NCBI GenBank assembly: GCA_024401535.1 | Contig: JAKSKX010000022.1 | Coordinates: 1-34,713, forward strand | Source of the DNA: Paludibacteraceae bacterium | GTDB lineage: Bacteria; Bacteroidota; Bacteroidia; Bacteroidales; Paludibacteraceae | Length of the DNA: 34,713 nt | Direction: 5' to 3' | In this document: one piece after another, positions 17,106 through 32,270 of the stretch | How the letters are laid out: each line of letters opens with the position of its first letter | How positions within the stretch are numbered: the first letter of the stretch is position 1 | Position numbers and translations under genes: made by a program | The notes under the pieces: generated by a model | Databases searched by the model: none | Seen by the model: only the letters and a program-made list of their open reading frames with translations | Told to the model about the DNA's origin: nothing

Positions 17106-17179
17106 GGCCCGTTAGCTCAACTGAATAGAGTATTTGACTACGGATCAAAAGGTTACAGGTTTGAATCCTGTACGGGTCA
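17106..17179 (+). tRNA. tRNA-Arg(ACG), copy 1
   Basis: A 74-base cloverleaf: acceptor GGCCCGT/ACGGGTC, D-stem GCTC/GAGT, anticodon stem TTTGA/TCAAA around the loop CTACGGA (anticodon ACG), T-stem ACAGG/CCTGT, discriminator A; CCA is not encoded. A34 should be deaminated to inosine by TadA to read CGU, CGC and CGA. The D-loop has A at position 19 and the T-loop has U at 56 in place of the usual G19 and C56. Confidence 0.95.
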
Positions 17180-17196
17180 CTTTTAAAATTAGTGAT

Positions 17197-17270
17197 GGCT
17201 CGTTAGCTCAACTGAATAGAGTATTTGACTACGGATCAAAAGGTTACAGGTTTGAATCCTGTACGAGTCA
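17197..17270 (+). tRNA. tRNA-Arg(ACG), copy 2
   Basis: Identical to copy 1 except that acceptor pair 4:69 is T-A instead of C-G, a compensatory double change that keeps the stem. It starts 17 bases after copy 1 and shares the promoter and the downstream terminator. Confidence 0.95.
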
Positions 17271-17315
17271 CAAATTCAAACGTGTGTTTGAGTACATTGT
17301 GTTAGTGTGAAACGG

Positions 17316-19939: not shown

Positions 19940-19962
19940 ACGATTTTGTTTTTTTGCGGGTG

Positions 19963-19970
19963 CAAAAATA
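19963..19970 (-). promoter_or_regulatory. -7 element of the DUF486-MFS operon
   Basis: TATTTTTG on the minus strand, 24 bases before the DUF486 start. No TTG was found at the right distance. Confidence 0.55.
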
Positions 19971-20363
19971 CTACAATTTGAGATTCTTTCGTGTAAAAGG
20001 TGCGACCATTTTTGCATCTTGCTCCGGTTTAAATTCCGAAGTCGCGTGCTATTCCAATCATAGGCAGGCGAAAGGCTGGCATACATTTGTCGGAGCTGTG
20101 TCCGTCGGCCTCTTGCTAGAAGCCTCAACTTTCATTTTTATGGGTGTAGCCTTAGGGTTCCGTTTCGCAAAGTCTCTTTTCCTCTATATGGCTGTCTATT
20201 GCGAGCCGAGAAACTGCAGGCTTGGTGTTGCCCTGCCTTTCTTCGCATTGTTGGTTGTCGGCTCAAGTTTTGTGTTCAAGGTGTGCCTTCCACAGTCTGT
20301 CTTTTCTTTCTTAAGGTCTATTTTTTTTGTTTTGTCTTTTTTGAACATAAATGGAAAAGTCGT
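19971..20363. other. 393-base stretch without a confident gene
   Basis: A plus-strand frame is open across it (19918-20406, hydrophobic in parts), and a minus-strand extension of the DUF486 frame covers its left part, but neither has a supported start, a promoter or a family match. The plus frame begins inside the DUF486 gene on the other strand and ends within the hairpin of the left 97-bp repeat. It may be part of a longer dispersed repeat. Confidence 0.5.
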
Positions 20364-20460
20364 AATATCGAACGAACCATATAAAACAAAAATTATCCAT
20401 TTTTAGATAGCATGAAAGCTAACTAAAAAAGGATAATCACACAAACTTAACACTAATACC
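20364..20460. repeat. 97-bp direct repeat, left copy, with 20-bp-arm hairpin
   Basis: Differs from the right copy by one base (G20374 versus T24723). It contains an imperfect inverted repeat (arms 20392-20411 and 20418-20437, two mismatches, ATGAAA loop) flanked by AAAACAAAAA on the left, so on the minus strand it looks like a Rho-independent terminator. Weaker similarity (GAAAAGT) extends about ten bases further left in both copies. Confidence 0.95.
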
Positions 20461-20567
20461 ATTTGTAAGTTTGTTACTGTCTATAAATAAATTAGTTATT
20501 CTTTCAAACTACCAAACATACACTTGATATAACCACGAATAAGGTCTTTATAGGAAAAAAACACTAA

Positions 20568-21126
20568 ATGAAAAATATAGAAACTTTGTTTATAACTGAG
20601 GAACTTTTGAAATTATATGGCACAACATCGAAAAATGTGAGTGTTGATAAATTGCTTCCTTATGCCTATATTGCACAATCATACTATATTGCCCCCCCTA
20701 CTAGGTAAAAGGCTTACTGAAGCCCTAAAAACAGCCATAGAGGAAGAAGAACTAACAGATGAATTAAAGGCCTTGATAATCAAAATTGCGCCACCATTGG
20801 CTAGCTATATTGAATATTTATCCATTCGCTCTCTCGCATACACCATAACAGAAAAAGGCATCACTAAAGGAAAAAGTGAAAATTCCGAATCTATAAATGA
20901 AAAGGAGCTTGCCGAGTATATGATTGACATAAAAAACAAAGCAGAAATGGGAATTGAATTACTTCAAAAATACCTATGTGAGTGCAGAGAAATGTATGAA
21001 TGGAATCCTGTGTATGAATGTGACTTCGAAAAATTCAATAAGACTGATGATGGAAAAAAGAATGATACTGCCAAGTTGATATACTTTCCGAAACGAAAGA
21101 AAGGATGTGGAAAATGCGAAGGCTAA
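20568..21126 (+). pseudogene. DUF6712-like phage structural protein, frameshifted at a C7 run
   Basis: The frame from ATG 20568 gives MKNIETLFITEELLKLYG and onward to YYIAPPTR, then stops. The frame one base later continues from 20692 as LLGKRLTEALKTAIEEEE to 21126 (KKGCGKCEG). Removing one C from the run of seven C at 20692-20698 joins them into one protein of about 185 residues ending in a cysteine- and lysine-rich tail. The joined sequence resembles, from memory, small proteins of the DUF6712 type encoded among the structural genes of Bacteroidota phages; I cannot confirm the family by search. The frameshift may be decay, a sequencing error or, less likely, slippage control. Confidence 0.6.
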
Positions 21127-21533
21127 TTCTATTTATTTGTGTTGTTTCAGGTATTTTTTTAGTTCTTGTAAGACCATATATAAGCCTATTGAAACAGTAA
21201 GATACGACACACTATACAAAAGTATATTCACTTTCGATACTCTAATTGAAAGGGACACACTAAGAGAAATACAAAAGGGTGATACTATAAGAGAGAGAAA
21301 AAACAAAGTATGTGTACAAGGTCAAAGTTAAGTATGACACGCTAATAGAAACAAAAATAGATACGATTTTAAAAATTGAAGAAATACCACAACAACCCAC
21401 AAAAAAAGAAATATTCTATCAATTCATAGGTCAGTGGATTTTTTGGATTTTATTGGTTCTTTTGTTTTGTTATTTTGCTTATAAAGTAATATGGAAAAAA
21501 TTAAAAATTCTTAGTTGTAAAAAAAAAAAATAG
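21114..21533 (+). pseudogene. Putative spanin-like phage lipoprotein, broken by two homopolymer indels
   Basis: ATG 21114 starts MRRLILFICVVSGIF. One extra T in the T7 run at 21154-21160 would continue it as FFSSCKTIYKPIETVRYDTLY, creating a lipobox (FSSC). One fewer A in the A6 run at 21298-21303 would then join it to the frame ending at 21533, which holds EIPQQPTKKEIFYQ and the membrane segment WIFWILLVLLFCYFAYKVIW. The repaired protein has about 139 residues: a lipoprotein signal, a strand-rich linker with DTL/DTI repeats, and a C-terminal transmembrane helix. That is the architecture of phage unimolecular spanins, and similar DTL/DSI-repeat proteins are common in Bacteroidota prophages. 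It overlaps the end of the preceding gene by 13 bases, as phage genes often do. Confidence 0.6.
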
Positions 21534-21544
21534 TTTCCCTTTAG

Positions 21545-21575
21545 TTGTAAAAATCTAAATTTCTTTTTAATTTTG
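21545..21575 (+). promoter_or_regulatory. Promoter of the small gene at 21.6 kb
   Basis: TTG at 21545-21547, 20-base spacer, TAATTTTG at 21568-21575. This is a complete Bacteroidota promoter inside the AT-rich block. Transcription should start near 21582, which excludes start codons before that point. Confidence 0.8.
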
Positions 21576-21596
21576 CTAATGAAAAAAATGCTGAAA

Positions 21597-21911
21597 ATGA
21601 GAAAGAAATGTAAAACAATGCAGGTTGAGGTGCAGAACCGTTGCTTCACCGCTGAATTTGTGCCAATGAGGGAGTATCAATCCTGGCTTATAGATGAGGT
21701 GACTGAGATAGTCCACAACTCTTATGTAGAAGGAAACGAGGAGTTCAATAATTGGGCAAAGAACTTTGAGAGAGAAGAGGCAGAGTTTGAAGTGAATATG
21801 GAGTTCTGTGTTGATTATATGGAAGATGATAGAACAGAAATACCAATGGAGGAAGCAAAAAATTATTTATATTCCCACGTAAAAACAATAATTAAGAATT
21901 GGTATATTTAA
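21597..21911 (+). CDS. Small acidic protein of unknown function
   Basis: A protein of about 104 residues: a basic start (MRKKCKTM), then VQNRCFTAEFVPMREYQSW and an acidic helical part rich in Glu. I recognise no family. The start is uncertain: ATG 21588, 21597 and 21618 all lie after the inferred transcript start. Its TAA at 21909-21911 is followed without a gap, in the same frame, by HsdR-like coding sequence, so this gene and promoter may have been joined to a broken hsdR by a rearrangement. It is AT-rich, unlike the HsdR part. Confidence 0.6.
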   Translation: MRKKCKTMQVEVQNRCFTAEFVPMREYQSWLIDEVTEIVHNSYVEGNEEFNNWAKNFEREEAEFEVNMEFCVDYMEDDRTEIPMEEAKNYLYSHVKTIIKNWYI

Positions 21912-21968
21912 GGGAAAAAGGGCCAAGTCCTGCCGCTGAAGGCGTGCATAGAGGTTGAGGTCGATGGA

Positions 21969-24611
21969 ATGCCGTCGGCAAGCAAAACGGGCTATGCCGA
22001 CTATGTGCTGTTCGGCAGCAACGGCAGACCGCTTGCCGTAGTCGAGGCCAAGCGCACATCCAAGTCAGCGGACGCAGGCAAGCACCAGGCGGAACTCTAT
22101 GCCGACAGCCTCGAGGCGAAGTACGGAGTCCGCCCTGTAATATACTATACAAACGGCTTTGAAACATATATAGTTGACGGGCTAGGCTATCCGCCAAGAA
22201 GGCTGTTCAGCTTCCATACTGCGGCCGACCTGGAACTGATGATTCAGAAGCGTGGCAGACACGACATAAACGACTTCAAGGTAAGGGAGAACATAACAGA
22301 CCGAGACTATCAGAAGATGGCAGTCAAGGCAGTCTGCGAGCATTTCAACAGGAAGCACAGAAAGGGTTTGCTCGTAATGGCTACTGGAACGGGAAAGACT
22401 CGCGTGGCAATATCTTTGGTTGACATTCTGACTCGCAACGAGTGGGTCAAGAATGTGCTGTTCCTTGCCGACCGAACTTCTTTGGTAACGCAGGCGCACA
22501 AGAACTTCGTAAAGCTTATGCCAAGCACAACCACCTGCGTGCTGAGTGACGACAGCGAGCATGACCTGAACGCCCGCCTGACATTCTCGACCTACCAGAC
22601 GATGATAAACCACATAGACGCGGAAACCAAGACTTTCAGTGTCGGCAGGTTTGACCTAATCATCATTGACGAGGCTCACCGCAGTATTTTCGGAAAGTAC
22701 GGAGCAATCTTCAACTACTTTGACAGTCTGCTGATTGGACTGACAGCCACACCTAGGGACGAAGTTGACCGAAGCACATACGAGATTTTCGAGATGGAGC
22801 AGGGCGAGCCGAACTTCGCATACGAACTTGAGGAAGCTGTTGCCGACAAATACCTTGTGAACTACAAGGGTTTGAAGCGCGGCTCGAAGATAATGACAGA
22901 CGGAATAAAGTACGCCGACCTTTCCGACGCCGAGCGAAAGCAACTGGAAAAGGTGTTCGATTACGAGAAGACGAAGAAGGCTCTTGACGGGGAATACACA
23001 AGAGACATCGAGTCAGAGGAAATCTTCAAATACATCTTTAACGAGGACACAATTTCGCAGGTTCTGCAGGACTTGATGAAAAACGGCATCAAGGTAAACA
23101 GCGGCGAGGAGATAGGCAAGACAGTAATCTTTGCCTACAACCACCGTCATGCAGAGATGATAGTGGAGAAATTCAACAAGCTGTTCCCTCAATACGGACC
23201 GGACTACTGCGCATTGATAGACAACTATGTAACATACGCAGACAGCCTAATCGAGAATTTTGAAATCAAAAACAAAGAGCCGCAGATAGCCGTTTCGGTT
23301 GATATGCTCGACACGGGAATTGATGTGCCTGAAGTTCTTAACTTGGTGTTCTTCAAGCGAATCCGAAGCAAAATCAAGTTTATGCAGATGGTTGGCCGAG
23401 GCACACGCCTGTGCAAAGACGTGTTCGGTCCAGGCAAAGACAAGGAATGTTTCTATATCTTTGACTGGTGCGGCAACCTTGACTATTTCGGTGAAGGTGG
23501 AGAAGGCGAGGAAGCCAAAGCGTCACTCTCTTTGACAGAAAGAATCTTCCAACTGCGCTCCGAAGTGGCGTATTACCTGCAGTCACAGGATTTTCAGGCT
23601 GACGCCTATGCCAGAAGCCTGCACGACAGCATAAAGATGCAGCTGCGCAGTGCTGTCGAAATTTTGTCAGATACGCATATCTCGGTCAGAACTAAGTGGA
23701 AGGAAGTCTGTCATTTCCGCGAGGACGAGACTTGGCTATGTCTGTCCATTGAGGATGTTGATTCACTGAAGCACGACATTTCCCCGCTTGTCCCCAAGAA
23801 CAAGGCTGACGAGAGTGCCAAGAAGTTCGACCTGCTGATGCTGACAATAGAGCTGGCGTTCATTGACGGAACGACCAAATGCGAAAGACAAAAGAACTCT
23901 GTGCAGACAATAGCGCAGACATTGATTACAAAGAAGGCAACTCTGCCAGCCGTACAGAAGAAGATGGAGATACTGAACGAGGTGCTGAACGAAGTAGCAT
24001 GGGACAACGCCAGCCTGAAATGGTACGAGAAAGTTCGTGAGGAGGTTCGCGAACTGTTGAAATTCCTGACTGACGAAGGTCGCTGGTTTGTGGTGAATAT
24101 CGACGATGTTGTGACTGAGGAGGGCGAATGCGAAGGTATAACGCCTGCAGTCTCGTACAAGCAGAAAGTGTTTGACTTCCTAGCAGAGAACAGGGACCTG
24201 CCCGTATTGCAGAAGATAACCAACATAGAGCAGCTGTCAAGCGAAGATGTAGTCGAGCTAGAACGAATAATGTGGAAGGAACTCGGAAGCAAGGAAGACT
24301 ATGACAAGTTCACCGAAGGCAAGATGTGCGGGCCAAACGTAGCCATATTCATTCGCAGCATTATTGGCGTTGACCGAGACAGGGCAGTCAGGAGATTCAG
24401 CGAACTGATTTCCGTAGCAGAACTGAACTATGAGCAGGAGGAATTCCTGAAATCAATAATCTCTTACGTCTGCGAAAACGGCGACATAACCAAGGAAATC
24501 GTAGTGAACGAAGACCCGTTCGCCTCGGGATTGGAAGACTTCGGCGCTGAATACATGATGCCTTTGGCCAAGTATGTTGACTCGATTCATAATGCAGTCT
24601 TGGCCGGATAA
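21969..24611 (+). CDS. Type I restriction enzyme R subunit (HsdR), 5'-truncated
   Basis: ATP-dependent translocase and nuclease subunit of a type I restriction system. Motifs: the nuclease segment YADYVLF...VVEAKRT (Asp11, Glu26-x-Lys28), Walker A MATGTGKT (137-144), DEAH box IIDEAHRS, motif III GLTATPRDE, VSVDMLDTGIDVP, and motif VI QMVGRGTRL, then a helical C-terminal domain. The family-like reading frame continues upstream of this ATG to 21912 (VLPLKACIEVEVDG), directly after a stop codon, so about 30-40 N-terminal residues of the usual 920-930 are missing and ATG 21969 is internal to the ancestral gene. No hsdM or hsdS is in the window. The nuclease and helicase motifs are intact, so a truncated protein could be made, but the gene is probably non-functional as a restriction system by itself. 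Confidence 0.88.
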   Translation: MPSASKTGYADYVLFGSNGRPLAVVEAKRTSKSADAGKHQAELYADSLEAKYGVRPVIYYTNGFETYIVDGLGYPPRRLFSFHTAADLELMIQKRGRHDINDFKVRENITDRDYQKMAVKAVCEHFNRKHRKGLLVMATGTGKTRVAISLVDILTRNEWVKNVLFLADRTSLVTQAHKNFVKLMPSTTTCVLSDDSEHDLNARLTFSTYQTMINHIDAETKTFSVGRFDLIIIDEAHRSIFGKYGAIFNYFDSLLIGLTATPRDEVDRSTYEIFEMEQGEPNFAYELEEAVADKYLVNYKGLKRGSKIMTDGIKYADLSDAERKQLEKVFDYEKTKKALDGEYTRDIESEEIFKYIFNEDTISQVLQDLMKNGIKVNSGEEIGKTVIFAYNHRHAEMIVEKFNKLFPQYGPDYCALIDNYVTYADSLIENFEIKNKEPQIAVSVDMLDTGIDVPEVLNLVFFKRIRSKIKFMQMVGRGTRLCKDVFGPGKDKECFYIFDWCGNLDYFGEGGEGEEAKASLSLTERIFQLRSEVAYYLQSQDFQADAYARSLHDSIKMQLRSAVEILSDTHISVRTKWKEVCHFREDETWLCLSIEDVDSLKHDISPLVPKNKADESAKKFDLLMLTIELAFIDGTTKCERQKNSVQTIAQTLITKKATLPAVQKKMEILNEVLNEVAWDNASLKWYEKVREEVRELLKFLTDEGRWFVVNIDDVVTEEGECEGITPAVSYKQKVFDFLAENRDLPVLQKITNIEQLSSEDVVELERIMWKELGSKEDYDKFTEGKMCGPNVAIFIRSIIGVDRDRAVRRFSELISVAELNYEQEEFLKSIISYVCENGDITKEIVVNEDPFASGLEDFGAEYMMPLAKYVDSIHNAVLAG

Positions 24612-24647
24612 TACGAGCAAAGAGAATTAAGTTTCTTTGAAACAGAA

Positions 24648-24677
24648 AGAGAGTGGGGTAGGCAAATCCCACTCTCT
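24648..24677 (+). terminator. Possible terminator hairpin after hsdR
   Basis: Ten-base perfect arms (24648-24657 and 24668-24677) with a ten-base loop, 37 bases after the hsdR stop. The downstream sequence lacks a strong T run, so termination is uncertain. Confidence 0.45.
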
Positions 24678-24712
24678 TGCATTTAGCAGTTCGCACATCC
24701 CGAAAAGTGCAG

Positions 24713-24809
24713 AATATCGAACTAACCATATAAAACAAAAATTATCCATTTTTAGATAGCATGAAAGCTAACTAAAAAAGGATAATCACACAAACTTAAC
24801 ACTAATACC
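24713..24809. repeat. 97-bp direct repeat, right copy, with terminator-like hairpin
   Basis: 96/97 identical to the left copy, offset 4349 bases. Hairpin arms lie at 24741-24760 and 24767-24786. Read on the minus strand it is followed by TTTTTGTTTTAT, so it can terminate the leftward transcript that starts near 24941. Confidence 0.95.
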
Positions 24810-24837
24810 TTAAATTTCTATTGCCCTAGGCTGTATA

Positions 24838-24891
24838 TTAGAAGCGAACCTTCTTGAACAACCAGTTGCAGATTAGATTGATGCAAACCAT
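24838..24891 (-). CDS. 17-codon ORF in a short leftward transcription unit
   Basis: The ORF encodes MVCINLICNWLFKKVRF, a short peptide with a hydrophobic centre and a basic end. A complete Bacteroidota promoter lies 57 bases upstream on the same strand, and a terminator-like hairpin lies 50-100 bases downstream inside the right 97-bp repeat. The predicted transcript is about 215 bases. It could be a small protein gene, a leader-peptide relic or a non-coding RNA with a chance ORF; I cannot choose between these from sequence. Confidence 0.4.
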   Translation of the reverse strand: MVCINLICNWLFKKVRF

Positions 24892-24947
24892 GACGATTAT
24901 TTATTTATTTTTTCTTTTGTTATATACCTCTTTGTCGTTTGACGCTG

Positions 24948-24978
24948 CAAAATTATGTCTTATAACATAAATATCCAA
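24948..24978 (-). promoter_or_regulatory. Leftward promoter of the short unit
   Basis: On the minus strand, TTG (24976-24978), a 20-base spacer and TAATTTTG (24948-24955). It is a full consensus match pointing away from the glycosyltransferase gene. The rest of 24892-25079 is AT-rich and shows no gene. Confidence 0.8.
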
Positions 24979-25079
24979 ATATTTTTGAAGAAAATTTTAT
25001 AAAAACTATGTTAAAAAACACTTCTTATAAAAAGTGTAAAATTCTTTAATCTTGTACTTATAGATTGTTATTTTATCAT

Positions 25080-25087
25080 TACTTTTG
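25080..25087 (+). promoter_or_regulatory. -7 element of the glycosyltransferase gene
   Basis: TACTTTTG, 27 bases before the start codon. The nearest upstream TTG is 25 bases away, longer than the usual spacer, so the -33 half is unsupported. Confidence 0.55.
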
Positions 25088-25114
25088 CTAACGAATTTTT
25101 TAAGCGAGTTTAGA

Positions 25115-28833: not shown

Positions 28834-28842
28834 AGAATGTTT

Positions 28843-29676
28843 ATGAAAAGGTTTATATTTACCATAATGTCATTGACTTGTGCAATAATGGCATTCCCTG
28901 AGTTCTATGTGATTATGAAAGATGGTTCTGAAAATCAAACTGAGGGCAAAAATGACACAGAAAGTCCTGAAGCTGCTGACATAAAGGGATTCAATGATAT
29001 GGCTGAAAGACTTTCAAAGATAGAGAAAGAAATAGAAAGCTTTAAAGAGATTTACAATGATGAAGTAACTTTCCCTGTCTCTGGCGAAGTTGACGGGTAT
29101 GAATATGTTGATCTTGGATTGCCAAGCGGCTTGTTGTGGGCTACAAAAAACATAGGAGCGGAGTCTTGCAGTGAATATGGTGATTATTATGCTTGGGGAG
29201 AGACAACAACAGCTCCTTCAAATAATTATTCTGAAGAAAATTGTAAGACCTATAATGTTTCTTTGTCTCAATTAAAAGAGAGTAATATTTTGGATATGCA
29301 AAGTCATCTGACTGCCGACTATGATGCCGCTTCCCAAAATTGGAGTGAAAACTGGAGAATGCCTACCAGTCAAGAATATCAGGAACTGGTAAGATATTGT
29401 AATTGGCTATGGACTGTTGTTGATGGCAAGGTTGGATATAAAGTTATGAGCTATCAGTCTGGTAACGATAACTGGATATTCCTTCCTGCTACAGGTTACG
29501 TTAATGATAGGGGTGAAGTTTATAAAGACACACAAGGACGTTATTGGACTTCTGTCGCAGATGGAAGCAAGGATATATATAGCTATTACTTGTCTGTTAG
29601 TTCTGATGAAAATCGCGTCTATTATAATGGTACGCGTTATTTAGGTTGTAGTGTGCGTCCTGTAACAAACAAGTAA
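28843..29676 (+). CDS. Secreted Fibrobacter-major-paralogous-domain protein, paralogue 1
   Basis: A 277-residue protein with a signal peptide (MKRFIFTIMSLTCAIMAF), FYVIMKDGS, an acidic linker, a short coiled coil (FNDMAERLSKIEKEIESFK, about 50-68), and a C-terminal domain from about 85: YVDLGLPSGLLWATKNIGA, GDYYAWGET, NWRMPTSQEYQELVRYC, IFLPATGY, and the end LGCSVRPVT. This matches the FISUMP/Fib_succ_major type, often found in surface proteins of Bacteroidota and Fibrobacter. Unlike the next two paralogues it lacks the DSISFD segment. ATG 28843 aligns with the paralogues; 28837 is six bases upstream. Confidence 0.85.
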   Translation: MKRFIFTIMSLTCAIMAFPEFYVIMKDGSENQTEGKNDTESPEAADIKGFNDMAERLSKIEKEIESFKEIYNDEVTFPVSGEVDGYEYVDLGLPSGLLWATKNIGAESCSEYGDYYAWGETTTAPSNNYSEENCKTYNVSLSQLKESNILDMQSHLTADYDAASQNWSENWRMPTSQEYQELVRYCNWLWTVVDGKVGYKVMSYQSGNDNWIFLPATGYVNDRGEVYKDTQGRYWTSVADGSKDIYSYYLSVSSDENRVYYNGTRYLGCSVRPVTNK

Positions 29677-29705
29677 ATCATAGTATTTAATAATCGTTGA
29701 GGTAT

Positions 29706-30539
29706 ATGAAAAGATTTTTGTTCTTTTTGGTATTTGAGTTTTCTCTGCAGTCTGCATTCTCTGCGGACCAGTTCTATGTAATTATGAAAGACGGTTCCGT
29801 AGAAACATATTCGACAGATGATCTTGATAGCATTTCGTTCGATGCTCCGAAGGTAGAGAATATTATGAGTGTCAATGATTTGGCAGAAAGAATCGTTAGC
29901 CTTGAAAAGGAAATAGAGGAGTTCAAGGCAAATTGTGGTGTTGGGGAAGCTGATACAGGGAATATTGATGGCTATGATTTCGTTGACCTTGGTTTGCCAA
30001 GCGGCTTGAAATGGGCGACAAAAAATATAGGTGCTGATGAAGTTAGCGATTGGGGTAATTATTATTCATGGGGAGAAATTGCTCCATCAAATGATTATTC
30101 AGAAGAGAATTGCAAGACTTATGAAAAGAAATTCTCCGAACTCAGAAAAAACGGAGATATTGATGCTCTCGGTAATTTGACTGCGAAAAAAGATGTTGCT
30201 TCGAAAAATTGGAGCGAGAATTGGAGAATGCCGACTTTTGTTGAATATGAGGAATTGATCAATAATTGTACTTGGGAGTGGGTATCTTTGGAAGGAGTGA
30301 ATGGCTATAAAATTGGTAGCAAGAAAGAGGGAAACAACAATTCGATATTTATGCCTGCCGCTGGATGTGTCGGATATCTTTCTGGTATGGAGAATTCCCT
30401 TGGTATGTATTGGACATCCACTTTTCATGATTATAATAGCTATTCCGCTTATTGTTTGAGCTTCAATAGAGGCGGAACGAATTTGGAAAATTATCTTCGT
30501 TATTACGGGTGTACTGTCCGTCCTGTTTCTGACAAATAA
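29706..30539 (+). CDS. Secreted Fibrobacter-major-paralogous-domain protein, paralogue 2
   Basis: A 277-residue paralogue: signal peptide ending near SAFSA, then FYVIMKDGSVETYSTDDLDSISFD, a coiled coil (VNDLAERIVSLEKEIEEFK), and the domain YDFVDLGLPSGLKWATKNIGA, NYYSWGEIAPSNDYSEENC, NWRMPTFVEYEELINNC, IFMPAAGC, YGCTVRPVS. It shares SNDYSEENCKTY with paralogue 1 (NNYSEENCKTY), so these two are the closest pair. ATG 29706 is preferred to an in-frame TTG at 29697. Cotranscription with paralogue 1 is likely because no terminator lies between them. Confidence 0.85.
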   Translation: MKRFLFFLVFEFSLQSAFSADQFYVIMKDGSVETYSTDDLDSISFDAPKVENIMSVNDLAERIVSLEKEIEEFKANCGVGEADTGNIDGYDFVDLGLPSGLKWATKNIGADEVSDWGNYYSWGEIAPSNDYSEENCKTYEKKFSELRKNGDIDALGNLTAKKDVASKNWSENWRMPTFVEYEELINNCTWEWVSLEGVNGYKIGSKKEGNNNSIFMPAAGCVGYLSGMENSLGMYWTSTFHDYNSYSAYCLSFNRGGTNLENYLRYYGCTVRPVSDK

Positions 30540-30584
30540 TTTATTCGAAAACAAGTCTGTGAGCTTTATAAATAATAAAGATAT

Positions 30585-31427
30585 ATGAAGAGAATTTTGT
30601 TCTTGATAATGTCAGCCTTTTCCATGCTAAATGGATATTCTGCTGACAATTTATATGTGATTAAGAAGGATGGTTCAGTAGAGAGCTATCCAACAAATAA
30701 AGTGGATAGCATTTCGTTTGATGATCCGCATATAGAGAAAGTTGTTGGTTTCAGTGATGTTGCTGAAAAAGTCATAGCTTTAGAAAACGAGTTGGACAAG
30801 CTGAACGAAAAATGCGCAAGCAAGAATGCGTCTGTTTTAGGAAAGGTTGACGGATATGAGTTCGTGGATCTTGGACTTCCAAGCGGCTTGAAGTGGGCAA
30901 CAAGGAATATAGGTGCAGAAGCAGAAAGTGACTTTGGAACTTATTTCGCATTGGGCGAGGTTGCTCCTTCCAAAACAGAGGTCTATTCAGATAAAACCTA
31001 CAAATTTTCAGGAAAGTCATTGGATGATTTGAAGTCTATGGGAGTGATAGATGAAAATGGTAATCTGACAGCCAAATATGATGCTGCCACACAAAACTGG
31101 AGTGAAAATTGGAGAATGCCAACTAAAGATGATTTTAAAGAGCTGTTGGAATATTGTACTTGGACATGGACGACTCTGAACGAGGAGAGTGGCTTCATGG
31201 TCGTAAGCAAGAAACAAGGTAGTGCCGGTTGGATATTTTTCCCTACTACGGGTTACTTCAGTAATACTTTTGTGAAGGAACCAGGTGCAATCGGTGAATA
31301 TTGGAGTTCTTCATTTTCCGAAGATTCAAGTTATACAGCTTATGTTCTTGAGTTTACTTCAAGCGATAAAAGTGTTGATGATGATATTTCATGTTATGGA
31401 CTGACAATTCGTCCTGTAACAAAGTAG
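30585..31427 (+). CDS. Secreted Fibrobacter-major-paralogous-domain protein, paralogue 3
   Basis: A 280-residue paralogue: signal peptide to about GYSA, LYVIKKDGSVESYPTNKVDSISFD, a coiled coil (VAEKVIALENELDKLNEKC), and the domain YEFVDLGLPSGLKWATRNIGA, TYFALGEVAPSKTE, NWRMPTKDDFKELLEYC, IFFPTTGY, YWSSSFSEDSSYTAYVLEF, YGLTIRPVT. AWGE of the others is ALGE here. The gene ends at a good terminator, which closes the cluster 28408-31427. Confidence 0.85.
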   Translation: MKRILFLIMSAFSMLNGYSADNLYVIKKDGSVESYPTNKVDSISFDDPHIEKVVGFSDVAEKVIALENELDKLNEKCASKNASVLGKVDGYEFVDLGLPSGLKWATRNIGAEAESDFGTYFALGEVAPSKTEVYSDKTYKFSGKSLDDLKSMGVIDENGNLTAKYDAATQNWSENWRMPTKDDFKELLEYCTWTWTTLNEESGFMVVSKKQGSAGWIFFPTTGYFSNTFVKEPGAIGEYWSSSFSEDSSYTAYVLEFTSSDKSVDDDISCYGLTIRPVTK

Positions 31428-31447
31428 ATTGTAAATTTTAATCATAG

Positions 31448-31478
31448 AAAGGTGGCAGCGATGTCACCTTTTGTTTTT
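31448..31478 (+). terminator. Rho-independent terminator after paralogue 3
   Basis: AAAGGTGGCA (31448-31457) pairs with 31462-31471 (one G-U) across a GCGA tetraloop, then TTGTTTTTT. The remaining bases up to 31619 hold only the promoter of paralogue 4. Confidence 0.85.
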
Positions 31479-31590
31479 TAGGCTTCCAAACAAATGATTG
31501 CCAATCTGACTTTGTTGTTTTGGTTCTTAGATATTTGTTAAGCCTTATAGCATTTGTCTGAAACGTTAGTGTAAATCATTTTCTTTTTTA

Positions 31591-31598
31591 TACATTTG
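31591..31598 (+). promoter_or_regulatory. -7 element of paralogue 4
   Basis: TACATTTG lies 21 bases before ATG 31620; a TTA at 31566-31568 is the nearest -33 candidate. An in-frame start at 31596 would lie inside the promoter, so it is excluded. Confidence 0.6.
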
Positions 31599-31619
31599 CA
31601 GAAACTAACTAAAAGTCTT

Positions 31620-32270
31620 ATGGTAAAGAAATTCATTTTGTCATTGCTTGTCTTGTGTGGAATAGAGTGCTTTGCACAAAAGGTGAGCGGCAGTATAGAT
31701 GGTCATGATTACGTTGACCTTTGTTTGCCAAGCGGACTAAAGTGGGCTGCCTCCAATGTCGGTGCTGTAAGGTCTGAAGACTATGGCGACTATTTTGCTT
31801 GGGGAGAAGTTGCGCCCAAAGATGAATACACAAAAGATAATTCATTCACATCTGGTAAATCTTTAGAGGATTTGCTCTCAGAAGGTGTGATAGATGAAGC
31901 AGGAAATCTTACATCCCAGTATGATGCCGCAACTCAACTGTGGGGACAGAAATGGAGAATGCCTTCATATTCAGACTTTATTGAACTTCTTGAAAATTGT
32001 GTCTGGCAGTCAACGACACTTAATGGGGTGCAAGGCTACAAGGTGTCGAGCAGGGTTAATGACAAATGGATTTTTCTTCCTGCCGCTGGTGGCCGCAACG
32101 GGCTTTCGAGTTATGATATGATTACGAGAGGCTACTATTGGAGCTCTTCTGCTTATGAAATAGCCGGAGTTAGTGCTTATCTTCTTGATATCGGTGTGAC
32201 AAATAAGCATATGGGCTATAGAAACCGTTACTACGGGCGTAGTGTACGTGCAGTTACAACAGCAGAATAG
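31620..32270 (+). CDS. Secreted Fibrobacter-major-paralogous-domain protein, short paralogue 4
   Basis: A 216-residue paralogue with a signal peptide (MVKKFILSLLVLCGIECFAQ) fused almost directly to the domain: DYVDLCLPSGLKWAASNVGA, DYFAWGEVAPKDEYTKD, KWRMPSYSDFIELLENC, IFLPAAGG, GYYWSSSAYEIAGVSAY, YGRSVRAVT. It lacks the KDGSVE-DSISFD segment and the coiled coil of the others. It has its own promoter and terminator, so it is expressed separately from the cluster upstream. Confidence 0.87.
   Translation: MVKKFILSLLVLCGIECFAQKVSGSIDGHDYVDLCLPSGLKWAASNVGAVRSEDYGDYFAWGEVAPKDEYTKDNSFTSGKSLEDLLSEGVIDEAGNLTSQYDAATQLWGQKWRMPSYSDFIELLENCVWQSTTLNGVQGYKVSSRVNDKWIFLPAAGGRNGLSSYDMITRGYYWSSSAYEIAGVSAYLLDIGVTNKHMGYRNRYYGRSVRAVTTAE

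Follow-up and report, generated by a model that had tools for sequence, protein, structure and literature searches.

A stretch of 34,713 nt from the draft genome of a gut-type member of the Bacteroidales, family Paludibacteraceae (hereafter the window), carries two direct copies of a 97 nt repeat, between which lie 4.2 kb of DNA containing damaged genes of mobile type. The best reading of this arrangement, which we hold with slightly better than even confidence, is that of a decayed integrated element with ends resembling att sites. We base it on the presence of only two copies, their direct orientation, the sharp right edge, the dyad core, the conserved small unit found on one side and the mobile-type scraps between them. 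What we observed directly are the repeats and the number of their copies, the conservation of the unit and the damage to the genes. Coordinates of the features are collected in Table 1.

Table 1. Features in and around the segment bounded by the 97 nt repeats (positions refer to the window).
Feature	Position	Strand	Basis or remark
Left 97 nt copy	20364..20460		att-like end adjoining chromosome; DMT (PF04342) and MFS genes further left
Left-copy hairpin, 18 pairs	20392..20437		sequence and fold
Phage-type gene with DUF6712 (PF20459) and an apparent frameshift in a C run near 20690	20568..21126	+	Pfam match in second frame, 20641-21126
Pieces, in two alternating frames, of what may be a single small gene for a membrane-anchored protein	21114..21533	+	translation; inference
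112-aa ORF of unknown family	21573..21911	+	no match
Type I restriction hsdR, 3′ portion	21915..24611	+	about the first 215-220 codons missing relative to the 1111-codon relative in G003
Right 97 nt copy	24713..24809		att-like end, also contains the hairpin after the small ORF
Right-copy hairpin, 18 pairs	24741..24786	-	interpreted as the small unit's terminator
17-codon ORF, conserved 17-19-aa type	24838..24891	-	translation and family comparison
Promoter-like block of the small unit, conserved	24938..24965	-	family search and pattern search

The two copies, whose starts are 4349 nt apart, agree at 96 of 97 positions, the sole mismatch being at repeat position 11 (20374 G versus 24723 T); both their location and the single differing base are as given in the initial annotation of this DNA. 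The repeat has a GC content of 27%. On the right the similarity stops abruptly (extension score 0), and beyond the left edge there is a weak outward resemblance of 10-11 nt with one gap, equalled in score by 100 of 3000 shuffles. Within the source genome, a search with the repeat (E ≤ 10) returned 10 rows, comprising the two full copies (E 3e-45 and 9.6e-44) and a third-best match of only 24 nt (E 0.006); this genome is a 69-contig draft of 2.96 Mb with a completeness of 91.5%, and further copies may lie in the missing sequence. The comparison sets were eight other genomes of the genus, 357 other genomes of the family, plasmids and viral contigs. None of the eight genus genomes carries the repeat (all candidates scored, E ≤ 0.001), and none was reported among the 357 family genomes at E ≤ 1e-4, where at most two candidates were scored per genome listed. 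Exact 30 nt and 22 nt pieces of the repeat matched no viral contig, a 220-base query matched no plasmid, and no second element ending in this repeat was found.

Each copy contains a hairpin, the inner part of which consists of 12 nt arms with one mismatch flanking 6 nt. A dyad of this kind is a common shape at recombinase sites. When the left copy with short flanks was folded as single-stranded DNA, a z score of -6.56 was obtained and none of 200 shuffles folded as well; for RNA comprising the right flank and right copy, the score was -3.38, with 2 of 200 shuffles as good. Read on the minus strand, the hairpin leads into a T-rich tract and is therefore taken to be a terminator. A consensus terminator scan reported three terminator-like sites (shuffle mean 4.8), and the hairpin of the repeat was not among these. 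That the right copy serves a real unit as its terminator is probable, because the 17-codon ORF preceding it is part of a small unit that is conserved. This unit comprises, in minus-strand order, the promoter-like block (24965-24938), the ORF (24891-24838) and then the right-copy hairpin, whereas the left copy is not accompanied by any such small ORF unit.

The promoter, small ORF and terminator hairpin that had been proposed at the right copy are thus present as elements, and together they make up a unit (promoter block, 17-19-aa ORF and usually a hairpin) that recurs in 10 other genomes of the family. When window positions 19946-25114 were searched against the family, the promoter block had short matches in 23 other genomes, in addition to the matches of hsdR. 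A pattern search for the block, allowing at most two mismatches in 358 genomes including the source genome, found it in 12, and the reversed-pattern control gave no match among the rows listed. In nine of the 12 the block precedes an ORF of 17-19 aa with the pattern M[VI]xxN...KK...F, with a hairpin seen by eye in most; the other three (G154, G256 and G285) have the promoter pattern without such an ORF. Seven of the 23 genomes with short block matches were already among the genomes of the pattern search. The loci of the remaining 16 were fetched, and block and ORF occur together in two of them (G301 and G307), the other 14 having no such combination. The unit is therefore carried by 11 genomes, namely seven of the nine in the genus (the source genome, G001-G005 and G007) together with G299, G301, G307 and G330.

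In G299 and G301 a second such ORF stands close behind the first. The unit lies just upstream of, and points at, an adjacent gene that by eye is hisB-like in G299, G301 and G307; in the window it points away from a hisB-like gene, with only GT in between. This neighbourhood, which the three genomes share with the window, suggests that the DNA to the right of the segment is older host DNA. Relatives of the GT protein with 45-54% identity occur at 12 loci, in bins that are named as Bacteroidales and include Paludibacteraceae. Further to the right, four paralogous ORFs in a row (28837-32270) have a 142 nt stretch in common, and the first of them has a FISUMP domain match below the curated cut-off. 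An Rfam scan of the window named nothing but two tRNA genes; two nearly identical tRNA-Arg (ACG) genes stand in tandem at 17106-17271.

The left part of the segment, from 20461 to 21914, has a GC content of 31.6%. It begins with a phage-type gene, whose ORF at 20641-21126 matches DUF6712 (E 2.1e-16) and which presumably starts at 20568 in a different frame. Two overlapping frames indicate that this gene is apparently frameshifted, or alternatively that the C run contains an assembly error. The DUF6712 protein has a relative on a 38.7 kb viral contig (L051), with 38% identity over 112 residues, and two proteins neighbouring that relative match head-protein families. This single viral contig gave the only such match; none was found among phage records or in the 357 other family genomes. 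The pieces that follow may represent one small membrane-anchored gene, for which neither family scan nor BLASTP gave a significant relative; the idea that it is the counterpart of the next gene on L051 was dropped, as the BLASTP comparison was not significant. The 112-aa ORF had no match in family scans and was found in no viral contig. The DUF6712 gene is thus the only phage or mobile-element gene between the repeats with a significant match, and among the scanned ORFs we recognised neither an integrase nor any other gene for mobility.

The right part is occupied by the hsdR piece, with a GC content of 49.4% that resembles much of the flanking coding sequence. It is related to hsdR of G003 and G001 with 77-78% DNA identity and with 86% and 85% protein identity, respectively. 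In both of these genomes the full-length relatives stand elsewhere, and that of G003 is preceded by genes that look, by eye, like hsdM and hsdS. When an 18 kb query around the G003 operon was searched against the source genome at the DNA level (40 of 50 candidates scored), no hsdM or hsdS was revealed; apart from the hsdR portion, the search returned three short stretches, and these lie outside both genes. The hsdR portion (21969-24611 in this comparison) is nearer to the genus relatives (protein identity 85-86%) than are the flanking DMT (75-78%) or GT (60-62%), a difference that may reflect later transfer or merely slower change. The broken phage-like genes and truncated restriction gene described in the initial annotation can be specified as an apparently frameshifted DUF6712 gene and a 5′-truncated hsdR. 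By GC content, its description of the whole segment as foreign suits the AT-rich left part better than the hsdR piece.

In the genus, GT was found in all nine genomes and DMT in seven. In each of the six relatives that have both, the two genes are on different contigs, so that none of these genomes is suited to showing the empty site proposed for comparison in the initial annotation, with the flanks joined by one repeat copy, and no such site was seen; two of the genomes, G004 and G008, are too fragmented, at DMT or overall, to carry much weight. The neighbours of DMT and GT that were fetched also differ from those in the window. The small unit and much of its upstream side are common to six relatives (G001-G005 and G007), in which similarity between groups is lost where the terminator ends, at roughly +180 to +190. 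Past this point there are three contexts: one in G001 and G002, another in G003, G004 and G007, and a different one in G005. By eye, the first is a locus of CRISPR-Cas type with a repeat array, starting just past the terminator, and the second a cluster of cobalamin type; the first ORF of the CRISPR-Cas type locus matches no NCBIfam family.

No integrase was seen by eye among the listed downstream ORFs of G001, G002, G003 and G005, and no second terminator copy was present in the 12 loci searched, which include the DNA fetched from the six genus relatives; in two of these relatives the contig ends soon past the terminator, leaving 3.4 kb of this DNA in G004 and 1.4 kb in G005. Upstream of the unit, about 340 nt (-472 to -135) fail to align between G001 and the G003 type. 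The region of the unit terminator is thus prone to change, yet no att site is needed for such changes, since in the six relatives the DNA past the terminator differs with neither an integrase seen by eye nor a second copy. A more general proposal, that the terminator of this conserved unit is a recurrent point of insertion or rearrangement in the family, would bring together the putative 97 bp att site of the window and the three contexts of the six relatives; we advance it only tentatively and consider it unlikely.

If the segment is a decayed integrated element, its history might be as follows. An integrating element, a prophage or genomic island with a probable tyrosine recombinase, would have inserted by site-specific recombination into the dyad-symmetric terminator of the small ORF unit. 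The attachment site of the element would have matched that of the host over about 97 bp, so that each end of the insert received a copy and the right one preserved an intact hairpin for the unit. Integrase and most other genes would then have been deleted, so that phage-type scraps remained on the left and the 3′ portion of hsdR on the right. We infer the integrase, the insertion, the deletions and the common origin of both scraps on one element. The proposal in the initial annotation that an element had integrated here agrees with the two direct copies, the conserved unit and the damaged genes, and lacks the integrase, the empty site and the second element that were looked for. Against integration also stand the mosaic of 32% and 49% GC inside the repeats and the fact that a structural-type phage gene, rather than an integrase, adjoins the left copy.

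The missing integrase, the GC mosaic, the absence of an empty site or second element among the genomes searched and the unstable place of the unit in the genus, keep a plain rearrangement under consideration. The terminator might have been duplicated by illegitimate or template-switch recombination, without a site-specific integrase, in an event that joined the DMT side, the phage scraps, hsdR and the small unit. Such an event would account for two inside pieces of unlike GC, for flanks that are both rearranged relative to the genus, with DMT and GT apart and beside other neighbours, and for the changing contexts just past the terminator. However, att sites typically show the pattern seen here, in which a transcription unit ends in a directly repeated 97 bp duplication with a sharp right edge and a dyad at its core, and the six relatives changed context without a second terminator copy in the fetched DNA. 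We regard rearrangement as a less probable alternative.

Two further explanations appear much less probable. The arrangement could be an artefact of assembly in a draft, probably metagenomic, genome of many contigs, particularly as the damage to the phage-type gene includes a C run and as a repeat of about 97 nt is close to the word sizes used by short-read assemblers. The one-base difference shows that the copies are not a single collapsed repeat, and the search of the source genome reported no third or partial copy at another contig end, leaving an artefact very unlikely. The competing view in the initial annotation, that a dispersed repeat family accounts for both copies, can be widened to a family of MITE-like kind and draws on the short, AT-rich and hairpin-forming character of the repeat. 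The copy search that it had proposed was run, and the finding of only two full copies in the source draft, with none reported in the genus or family genomes as scored, argues against a dispersed repeat and makes this view highly improbable.

Should the reading as a decayed integrated element be correct, the terminator of a microprotein unit would be added to the integration targets in Bacteroidales, and intact elements could be searched for the 97 nt sequence as a defined candidate att site. Genes as short as the conserved 17-19-aa ORF escape annotation, and this by-product may prove more useful.

Prophages and genomic islands bounded by attL and attR are known from the 3′ ends of genes for tRNA, tmRNA and small RNAs. 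The segment in the window resembles these in having direct repeats at both ends, one copy of which restores the 3′ end of a small unit, in its dyad-symmetric core, and in the phage-type and restriction genes inside. It differs in that no integrase was recognised and no empty site seen, and in that insertion here would have targeted a terminator, belonging to a unit with a 17-19-aa ORF. Because an integrase was looked for and none recognised, we compare the segment with islands of this kind and do not count it as a proven member. Microvirus-related proviruses of Bacteroidetes have no integrase gene and are bounded by a duplicated site of 13 bp within a dif-like sequence (PMC3091885). A provirus integrated through Xer would be expected to have a dif-like site of about 28 bp at its ends. 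The 97 bp repeat of the window is much longer than the published 13 bp repeat, and family scans named no microvirus genes between the repeats. With these proviruses the segment nevertheless has in common a Bacteroidetes host, a small remnant without a recognised integrase and direct repeats at the ends.
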